This document shows positions 49,690-53,396 of a stretch of DNA of 64,000 nucleotides, piece after piece. The stretch lies in IMG/VR virus record IMGVR_UViG_3300023210_000021, positions 19,833 to 83,832 of that record, one strand, 5' to 3'. The translations under genes were made by a program, and so were the position numbers. Source of the stretch: a virus. Within the stretch, counting starts at the first letter, position 1; each line of letters opens with the position of its first letter. A model generated the notes under the pieces. That model was not told where the DNA came from and ran no database searches. It worked only from the letters and a program-made list of their open reading frames with translations.

Positions 49690-51651
49690 TTATGCTGTAT
49701 TTAATGAAGAACCAACTTTTCCACCTGAATAATTAGCTCCATTTAAAGAATCTGTTATCATTTTAGTTACTACACCTTTTATTGATTCCATATCTAAATC
49801 TATATTGGTACTCCCATTTGGGGCATTAAGTGTTAAATCACCATTAATTGTCATTGTAATTGGTTCTACCTTAATTGTGTCACCACCTCCCGAACCACCT
49901 AATAAATTTTGTGGTTTACCAGCGATAACCAAATCTCTATTATCTAACGAAAAATCACCAAAACCCCCAGATAAAATTCTATTACCACCACCTACCGACG
50001 CTACATCATGCTCTGGTGTTACATTAGGTTTCCCTTTGTTATCAACACCACTTACATCTTCCTTTTCCCCTCGCAATAGTTTTTGAATGGTTATTTTAGC
50101 ATCCTCTACAGTAATTTCTTTAATTTTACCTAATGCATTCTCCAAATCCTTAGATGCTGCACCCATTAAAGACTTAGTAAATGTGCCCGCTTTTAAACCT
50201 GCCCCACTAAACATTTTATCAATATTCTTTTGTATGTCAGTACTATTGAAAGCTTCGATAGTTTGATCAACAATTTTTTCTGTACCTTTTGTCCATTCAT
50301 CTATAATAGGTTCCATAGTATCCTCAAATGCCATATAAACATTTGCTTCACCTAAAAATCTTGTTTCCAATGACTTATCGATCTGTTCAAGATACTTGTT
50401 AGTAGTCATTGCTTCTTTTGCTGTAAGTAAAATAGCGTCTTCTGAAGTTGTCGGTACTTCTAAAATACCTTCTTCCATCGCTTTCTTAATACCATCTGTA
50501 TCACCAATCTCTATCTCCTTACCGTCAAAATCAACAACCCATTTCTTTTCTTTATTTAACCTAGCTAGATTTGCAATACCTTCTCTCGATTCTTCATCAC
50601 CAAAACCAACATCCATCTTAATGTCTTTAATTTTTGATGCTTGTCTAGCCATATCAATCATGTTATCGGTATTGATATTTAATTGATCCCCAGCAGCTTT
50701 AAGTTGCATCCTTGCTTCTGGTGGGAAGTCATACTCACCAGTTTCTTTGTTGAATGACATCATATTTTCTGTCATATCAGCAACCTTTTGAGCAAGTTCT
50801 TCTGGTTTGTTCCGAGCTAAATACATTATCTCAAACGGATCACCAAACGCATCTGCAACATCACCCCCTAACATTTGTAAATTAGCAACGGCTTCTATTG
50901 CTGCCTCTGGTTCGTAGAACTTATCTGCCATACTTAACATTTCACCAACATCCATTCTCATTTTAACCGCTAGTTGAGCCATTTGTGTCATGCCTTTAAC
51001 ACCACCTCTAAATGACATGTTTTGCATACTACTAAAATTATCGGATAATACTTTTGTAACTTTTGATGCGTTTAAACCTAATTTTTGAGAGTCTTTAAAA
51101 ATTTCTTTAATGGCTGTCATAGAAGCTTCACTGGATTTTCCCATAAAATCCATTCTCTCCATTAATTTTGCTGCGGATTCACCCACCAACCCAGTTGCTT
51201 TCTCTAACGCAATAACGTTTCCAACTTCTTCTGGGGTTACAATTCTAGCTCTACCTGATTGTTCAGCAATTGCGGTAATTGCAGTCTCAACGTCACCAAC
51301 CTCCGCACCTAACCTTTGAGCTATTTCAACAGATTTAATAAATGACTTACCGAATTCTTGTTGTTTTTTAGTGGATATACCAACATTAATAGAAGTTTTT
51401 TTGTAACTTTCAGCTAACAACTCAGCCGCTTTATATTGTTTCTCAATACTTTTAGCAAATACCACACTGTTTTGCCCAATCTTCGTCATCCTCTTTGCTG
51501 CATCTGCAACTAGATTAGATGTTTCACCGATACTTGCCCCTAACCTTTCAGATGACTTAGCGGCACCATCCAATGATTTTTTCAGATTCGTTATCTGAAC
51601 CTGTAAATCATCTAACTGATCTTTTAACTCTTGATTAGTTGGTGTTCCCAT
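49690..51651 (-). CDS. Tail tape measure protein
   Basis: The 653 residues are mostly long amphipathic helices with Ala, Lys and Glu, starting with a coiled coil (QLDDLQVQITNLKKSLDGAA). Phage tape-measure-type stretches follow, such as VDFDGKEIEIG, TAKEAMTTNKYLEQIDKSLE and a C-terminal Gly/Asn-rich tail. This composition, the position before the baseplate genes and a frameshift-type chaperone pair upstream all argue for the tape measure. At about 1.5 angstrom per residue it would fit a tail of roughly 100 nm, similar to T4. The N-terminal region recalls TP901-type tape measures. No peptidase motif is seen. Confidence 0.75.
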   Translation of the reverse strand: MGTPTNQELKDQLDDLQVQITNLKKSLDGAAKSSERLGASIGETSNLVADAAKRMTKIGQNSVVFAKSIEKQYKAAELLAESYKKTSINVGISTKKQQEFGKSFIKSVEIAQRLGAEVGDVETAITAIAEQSGRARIVTPEEVGNVIALEKATGLVGESAAKLMERMDFMGKSSEASMTAIKEIFKDSQKLGLNASKVTKVLSDNFSSMQNMSFRGGVKGMTQMAQLAVKMRMDVGEMLSMADKFYEPEAAIEAVANLQMLGGDVADAFGDPFEIMYLARNKPEELAQKVADMTENMMSFNKETGEYDFPPEARMQLKAAGDQLNINTDNMIDMARQASKIKDIKMDVGFGDEESREGIANLARLNKEKKWVVDFDGKEIEIGDTDGIKKAMEEGILEVPTTSEDAILLTAKEAMTTNKYLEQIDKSLETRFLGEANVYMAFEDTMEPIIDEWTKGTEKIVDQTIEAFNSTDIQKNIDKMFSGAGLKAGTFTKSLMGAASKDLENALGKIKEITVEDAKITIQKLLRGEKEDVSGVDNKGKPNVTPEHDVASVGGGNRILSGGFGDFSLDNRDLVIAGKPQNLLGGSGGGDTIKVEPITMTINGDLTLNAPNGSTNIDLDMESIKGVVTKMITDSLNGANYSGGKVGSSLNTA

Positions 51652-52480: not shown

Positions 52481-52705
52481 TTACCCTTCTTGGTTTGGTT
52501 GTAATAATCTGATAAAATATCGTCTTGAATATGTGGGCATTATTAAAGTATCTGAATAACTATACCCATTACTTACTAGAAACGCTATTTCTTTATGTAA
52601 CTGAGCGTTATAACTAGAGTTCAGGCCATAAAAAATTAGATCCGAATCTAAGAAAGGTGGCAGTTTCGACCCCCCCTTGAATCGTAGCAGTCGTCTTAAA
52701 ATCAA
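52481..52705 (-). CDS. +1-frame extension or overlapping ORF of the gp26-like gene
   Basis: This frame overlaps the end of the gp26-like gene by 92 bases and continues 133 bases beyond its stop, where no other gene lies. The non-overlapping part (HKEIAFLVSNGYSYSDTLIM, then PTYSRRYFIRLLQ) looks like real protein. It resembles the short C-terminal partners found downstream of gp26-like genes in T4-like phages (a MP-x-Y-x-R-R-x-F type end). It has no start codon after the overlap, so it is reached either by re-initiation within the overlap (ATG at 52705) or by a frameshift at the run of seven G near 52675. This is the layout of tail assembly chaperones such as lambda G/GT or P2 E/E'. Confidence 0.5.
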   Translation of the reverse strand: MILRRLLRFKGGSKLPPFLDSDLIFYGLNSSYNAQLHKEIAFLVSNGYSYSDTLIMPTYSRRYFIRLLQPNQEG

Positions 52706-53396
52706 TTCCGGGTTCTATTTCACTAATATATTTTCTTAATGACCTTGAATCTATAATGCTCATATTTTTTATTAAAGCAGAAATCTTCATTTTATCACGA
52801 ATCCCATCTACCTCCATTATTTCCCTTTCAAGTCTTAATGTAGTTTCATAAGAAATATCATCCCCATTTCTTTTCATGGTCATTTCATTTTTCTCAGATA
52901 TTTCACTTTCATCTTTTCCAGTTAATAATCTAAATTTCACTGTTTTCTTTGTGGTTGGCAATTCATAATCAAATTCACCTGATTGATCTGGGGTAATCCC
53001 CAACTTTTTTTGTTTAAGTGTGGATAAGTCAATCTCCCCCATCTCCACTTTTTTTGTCTTTGGGTTAATAACTGGTTGTGAATACATATGACCAAACCCT
53101 GTTGATCTTAAATAAATTAATATAGCTATCCTATCACCCTCTATTAAGTCTTCTACATTAAACCCTAAATCCTTAACTTTCCTCTCTAACAAAACATCTA
53201 TCATCCGACCACCACTTGATAAATTAGGTGATGTTAATATATTTTCATCCATTGTTGTTAGGTATTCCACCTTAACTGTTGGTTTTTTATTTGGGTATAG
53301 AATCCCCTGCGAGGGTAATTCAATAATATCGAATGGCACCCTATATTCCTCAGGAATAAAATTTGGATCCATATTTTGTGCATAGTTATTTTCCAT
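52614..53396 (-). CDS. Baseplate hub assembly/tail chaperone protein, T4 gp26-like
   Basis: The 260 residues fit the T4 baseplate protein family (gp26, PF12322). FDIIELPSQGILYPNKKPTV gives the L-P-S-x-G-x-x-Y start, VEYLTTMDENILTSPNLSSG follows, and then DRIAILIYLRSTGFGHMY. A C-terminal helical part ends in FGSNFLWPEL, like the F-F-W-P end of the family. It lies upstream of the tape measure, where other phages encode a tail assembly chaperone. The stop at 52614 lies within the second ORF described at 52481-52705. Confidence 0.65.
   Translation of the reverse strand: MENNYAQNMDPNFIPEEYRVPFDIIELPSQGILYPNKKPTVKVEYLTTMDENILTSPNLSSGGRMIDVLLERKVKDLGFNVEDLIEGDRIAILIYLRSTGFGHMYSQPVINPKTKKVEMGEIDLSTLKQKKLGITPDQSGEFDYELPTTKKTVKFRLLTGKDESEISEKNEMTMKRNGDDISYETTLRLEREIMEVDGIRDKMKISALIKNMSIIDSRSLRKYISEIEPGIDFKTTATIQGGVETATFLRFGSNFLWPEL

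Follow-up and report, generated by a model that had tools for sequence, protein, structure and literature searches.

Phages lambda (G/GT), P2 (E/E') and Mu produce their tail assembly chaperone as a short form and a low-level, frameshift-extended form, in each case from a position just upstream of the tape measure gene, and T4 is the textbook exception to such frameshifting. Its gp26 and gp51 (TAC-N and TAC-NC) belong to the same profile family, phrog_150, and are encoded by two genes on opposite strands, between which no frameshift is possible. T4-like phages reportedly use another mechanism involving TAC-N and TAC-NC, to go by the title of the work of Vladimirov et al. from 2022. Tail-chaperone frameshifting is known in -1, -2 and +1 versions (PMC5009743); "some" T4-like phages use two genes (PMC10885494), and Vladimirov et al. 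2022 is cited in PMC12846349 for poly-T sites in T4-like TAC-N genes. Some gp26-like genes may therefore already be known to frameshift; a +1 direction, a UUU_Y site, relocation of the site and a 5' hairpin were not found for such genes in the searchable literature.

Here we describe a locus within a window of 64,000 nt (the whole stretch of DNA analysed) that very likely encodes both forms of the tail assembly chaperone of a contractile-tailed phage in the T4 superfamily, the longer one produced by a +1 slip at UUU_CUU_AGA with the help of a 5' stem-loop. The case is built on sequence comparison, through the two-frame architecture, selection on both frames, a bracket around the slip, invariance of UUU_CUU, a covarying hairpin in relatives and kinship with gp26 and gp51. 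In contrast to T4, one gene would give rise to both forms. Whereas lambda and P2 shift by -1 and Mu by -2, the window locus would shift by +1 at UUU_Y, with gp26/gp51 family proteins and a 5' stem-loop; it is also unlike the tail assembly chaperone genes of Vandenendeviridae and Andersonviridae, where a GTTTTT site leads into the -1 frame (PMC12846349). The tail chaperone pair of the haloarchaeal myovirus HSTV-2 is likewise in the +1 arrangement, in an archaeal host (PMC5009743). With the bacterial +1 sites UUU_Y and RF2 CUU_U (YopN-TyeA, rhizobial ICE; PMC5009743) the locus would share P-site tRNA re-pairing by +1 on UUU_Y, but it differs from them in having no adjacent stop codon, in carrying a 5' hairpin and in its proposed service to a tail chaperone.

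Locus architecture and kinship with gp26 and gp51

The window is a portion of an 83.8-kb virus record and carries a T4-type tail module on the minus strand, in the order sheath, tube, ORF1 with ORF2, a 220-aa coiled-coil-like protein and a 653-aa candidate tape measure. Its features are as follows.

Tail module, minus strand: sheath gene, phrog_23 match, E 2e-58
Tail module, minus strand, before ORF1: tube gene, phrog_4542 match
53396..52614, minus strand: ORF1, 260 aa, gp26-family putative short tail assembly chaperone (TAC-N)
52705..52481 (from the first TTG), minus strand: ORF2, in the +1 (= -2) frame relative to ORF1
52684-52667, minus strand: proposed 5' stem-loop, arms 52684-52679 (CGATTC) and 52672-52667 (GGGTCG), loop 52678-52673
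52676-52670, minus strand: G7 run, read by ORF1 as GGG GGG G; loop and 3' arm of the proposed stem-loop
52655-52647, minus strand: proposed +1 slip site UUU_CUU_AGA (F248 L249 R250)
52651..52481, minus strand: predicted +1-frame extension (TAC-C / gp51 C-terminal-like domain), 56 codons LDSDLIFYGLNSSYNAQLHKEIAFLVSNGYSYSDTLIMPTYSRRYFIRLLQPNQEG plus stop TAA (52483-52481)
52634-52623, minus strand: F-[FL]-W-P motif TTT TTA TGG CCT, homologue of the wider-family TTT TTT TGG CCT slip site, degraded here
51651..49690, minus strand: candidate tape measure gene, 653 aa, downstream in the same tail module, assigned by position only

The layout is exactly that given in the preliminary description, which had reported a gp26-like ORF ending at 52614, overlapped over 92 nt by an ORF in the +1/-2 frame that runs 133 nt beyond its stop, and a G7 run read GGG GGG G in the first frame. 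ORF1 ends in FLRFGSNFLWPEL and ORF2 in PTYSRRYFIRLLQPNQEG. Homology searches with the 653-aa candidate tape measure found no detectable tape-measure homology; the annotations of the isolates immuto and LIS04 name the next large gene as tape measure. Elsewhere in the window, a 1719-aa tail protein (46031-40872, minus strand) possesses a C-terminal endolysin-like domain (phrog_181, residues 1528-1708, E 2.6e-23).

Both T4 proteins fall within phrog_150 (gp26, E 6.7e-71, positions 14-235; gp51, E 2.6e-84, positions 13-280). ORF1 alone matched this profile with E 9.4e-7 (29.5 bits, positions 11-221), and the fused window protein reached 34.3 bits over positions 11-277 of 282, a modest gain, compared with 30.1 bits for a control fusion carrying the reversed extension; among relatives, E-values went down to 1e-15. 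Based on these alignment spans, ORF1 corresponds to gp26 and ORF1 plus ORF2 to gp51, with the fusion aligning along gp51 including its C-terminus, and the extension matches the C-terminal part of this family, to which both gp26 and gp51 belong. Pfam PF12322 gave only E 0.011 for the window protein and 1.3e-6 for a relative (L144), another relative's fusion (L022) also matched phrog_634 ("baseplate hub assembly catalyst", E 0.011), and direct hhalign comparison to the single T4 sequences was suggestive only (gp51, E 0.03-0.15). An AlphaFold2 model of ORF1 (pLDDT 90.5) matched 55 predicted viral proteins in BFVD at E<=1e-3, some of them T4-like baseplate hub assembly proteins. A PDB fold search returned no significant match, the only tail assembly chaperone listed being that of HK97 (2ob9, E 4-5.6); NCBIfam held no family for ORF1, and tblastn of ORF2 alone against phages gave no match. 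The extension domain of L144 (2357-2581, plus strand) showed a weak similarity to Pfam DUF6760 (E 0.0028), which might help to locate further loci pairing a gp26-like gene with an extension.

Conservation of both reading frames

Relatives were drawn from IMG/VR, INPHARED and GTDB contigs, and an extension was scored where it continued at least 100 nt past the ORF1 stop. The ORF1 stop could be read in 220 homologous loci. Such an extension is present in the +1 frame of 205 of them, whereas the -1 frame has one in 48; the loci share phylogeny rather than being independent, so that p-values drawn from them are overstated. A reduced set retained the +1 extension in 169 of 182 loci, the remaining 13 comprising six cut by a contig end, one with a mis-parsed start (L055) and six true exceptions. 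The extension was also identified in contigs binned with Bacteroidota MAGs, and in isolates infecting Flavobacterium (immuto), Microcystis (Mel-JY01), Bacillus (SP-15), Listeria (LIS04) and Streptococcus (GXN1). Substitutions in the extension were distributed 208/100/535 over ORF2 codon positions 1, 2 and 3 (52 independent pairs), from which we conclude that it evolves as protein-coding sequence; across relatives its consensus is GLxxxYxxxLHxEIFxLVxHGxxGFxxxxVYxMPxxxRxxY. These counts, together with the coding signature and the phrog_150 match, support the suggestion, made from the window sequence alone, that a phage of the T4 superfamily carries a gp26-family tail assembly chaperone lengthened by frameshifting.

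The preliminary description had also allowed for a missing or extra G in the assembly. Homopolymers are indeed error-prone; however, the same architecture is shared by more than 200 other assemblies and by isolate genomes with differing site sequences, and a miscount of the G run or a T run is therefore extremely improbable. No such correction is needed, as ORF1 family sequence flanks the run on either side, and alignment with relatives whose G-run sequences differ found both frames retained.

A start codon within ORF2 had been named as a further alternative, under which ORF2 would be a separate gene translated from its own start by translational coupling, in the manner of two relatives with their own ATG (L115 and L008) or of T4 gp51. 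The window does offer a TTG at 52705, but such a start is not conserved: the +1 frame holds no ATG, GTG or TTG ahead of the conserved core in 15 of 33 window-clade lineages and in 63 of 166 wider-set loci, starts upstream of the slip site run into a stop in 14 of the 33 lineages, and the conserved residues begin at the slip point. Independent initiation in the window is thus very unlikely, and an extension reached by frameshifting is preferred.

A small number of relatives depart from the +1 arrangement. In three loci (L034, L043 and L048, around 2220-2260) the extension lies in the -1 frame, and a canonical -1 heptamer, A_AAU_UUC, stands at the corresponding place; a fourth locus (L031) has it in the -1 frame after a run of nine T. 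These four may represent a natural switch of frameshift direction. At L115 (about 2248-2290) the extension has its own ATG after AAGGA, and at L008 (about 3769) it begins with its own ATG at a TAATG overlap, such that independent initiation has apparently replaced frameshifting in both. The exceptions fit the rule that the extension is retained by whatever means.

Deposited annotations of the isolates examined hold no record of a frameshift. In immuto, Mel-JY01, LIS04 and SP-15 (L005, L007, L010 and L011) the extension is left out of the annotation, shortened to begin at an internal start or assigned a start within ORF1. The present analysis corrects these annotations, which either overlook the C-terminal part or place its start wrongly.

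Position of the proposed slip site and the upstream stem-loop

In the wider family (166 loci), stops in the +1 frame come as close as four codons to the start of the first post-slip codon; that none follows it is in part a consequence of how the loci were chosen. The place so delimited corresponds to the ORF1 motif F-F-W-P, encoded as TTT TTT TGG CCT in 107 of 169 loci; its Pro codon is CCT in 154 of 163 cases as against 35% elsewhere, a preference attributable to the need for Leu in the +1 frame. In the window clade this 12-mer is degraded, and a TTT CTT seven codons upstream is invariant instead (45 of 45 loci, 33 of 33 lineages). Its Leu is encoded by CTT in all 33 lineages, compared with 10% of Leu codons elsewhere in these genes, and the other invariant Leu columns of the clade are mostly TTA. 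Stops in the +1 frame lie three codons before TTT CTT in 14 of the 33 lineages, and none lies between TTT CTT and the ORF1 stop. Together these patterns point to a slip at or adjoining UUU_CUU in the window clade. The CTT constraint could come partly from keeping the +1 frame open before AGA, a need which itself places the slip at or before the CTT codon. An in-frame UUU_Y falls within the permitted interval at all 214 loci, against a background of 0.0064 per codon, and UUU_Ynn is especially prone to +1 frameshifting in bacteria (PMC5009743). As for a -2 shift, the window TTT CTT AGA offers no cognate re-pairing, nor does any position within the bracket in 28 of 214 loci. In four lineages lying between the clades (L280, L281, L282 and L287), the upstream TTT CTT coexists with the downstream TTT YTT TGG CCT.

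A second UUU_U, at 52634 in the F-F-W-P motif, is likewise in frame and inside the open bracket of the window, and it occupies the place used by the wider family. A +1 slip there, rather than at UUU_C (52655), would nevertheless leave unexplained both the invariant CTT at L249 and the hairpin 5' of TTT CTT, and the canonical TTTTTTTGGCCT is degraded in the window clade; we regard it as unlikely. Transcriptional slippage at a T run, in place of ribosomal frameshifting, might be considered given that 133 of the 166 wider-family sites contain seven T in a row. It is nonetheless highly improbable, since the site proposed for the window, TTTCTTAGA, lacks any long run, and 15 of the 166 sites still keep the frame with a longest T run of at most 4.

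The preliminary description had placed the slip on the G7 run. Such a run is slippery in principle, the +1 frame of the window is open upstream of it, and in two relatives (L001 and L004) GGG GGT would also permit a -2 shift onto GGG. Against a -2 (or +1) slip of this Mu-like kind, the 14 clade lineages noted above have their +1 stop between the G run and TTT CTT, which lies 15 nt downstream of the run, so that G7 cannot be the slip site in those lineages; the wider-family stops, as near as four codons before the slip point, exclude an upstream slip there as well. Since the run is also accounted for as the loop of a covarying hairpin, slippage on G7 retains very little probability, and a +1 slip at UUU_CUU_AGA remains our preferred reading.

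Evidence for the hairpin comes from synonymous conservation extending ten codons upstream of the slip in the window clade. A 6-bp stem closing a G-rich loop of 8 nt accounts for this conservation, and in most relatives its end lies 9 nt ahead of UUU. Stems in relatives include GGACUC-AGGGGGGA-GAGUCC (L013), GGAUGC/GCAUCC (L014), GGACGC/GCGUCC (L016) and CGACUC/GAGUCG (L244), and 34 of 39 loci pair at all six positions in one of two registers, the arms being shifted by 2 nt in the window and in L236, L239 and L240. Mean folding energy is -10.4 compared with -4.6 for synonymous shuffles, stem covariation is 0.474 compared with 0.172 (reached in 0 of 500 shuffles), and 98% of stem cells are paired as opposed to 28-57% in slid versions. 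The window's own hairpin is weak (-4.2 kcal/mol) and is not the minimum-energy fold of its 33-nt region. In the wider family, 6-bp stems at the corresponding place number 43 where 19.3 are expected, an enrichment only, and an Rfam search returned nothing credible. Comparison among relatives thus identifies G7 with the loop region of a stem-loop that covaries, and not with the slip site.

Proposed mechanism and wider significance

Under the proposed mechanism, most ribosomes would stop at the end of ORF1 and release the 260-aa, gp26-like TAC-N, while a fraction would slip one base forward at UUU_CUU_AGA (52655-52647). With UUU in the P site, the peptidyl-tRNA-Phe would re-pair with the overlapping UUC, allowing UUA to enter the A site; the +1 frame would then be read for 56 codons, giving a 304-aa TAC-NC equivalent to T4 gp51, with the junction ...VETATF-LDSDLIF..., i.e. 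...ETATF-LDSDLIFYGLNSSY. The 5' stem-loop, holding the G run in its loop, probably refolds behind the ribosome and pushes it forward, raising the rate of slipping. We infer the chaperone role from gp51 kinship, from gene position and from analogy with lambda G/GT. On that analogy, TAC-N would cover the tape measure, and tail tube subunits would be brought in by the C-terminal domain of TAC-NC.

Beyond this locus, the evidence is evenly balanced on whether UUU_Y with a refolding 5' stem-loop constitutes a new class of bacterial +1 programmed frameshifting and the ancestral T4-superfamily route to two chaperones, replaced in T4 by two genes, with the slip site having moved seven codons within one clade and the direction having changed in others. 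The loci amount to hundreds of naturally occurring versions of a simple +1 site preceded by an RNA hairpin, and so allow a direct test of how bacterial ribosomes shift by +1 where no stop codon adjoins the site. Taken together, tail-chaperone frameshifting appears to be in use across a large section of the T4 superfamily, for the most part uncultured, and in the unusual +1 direction.
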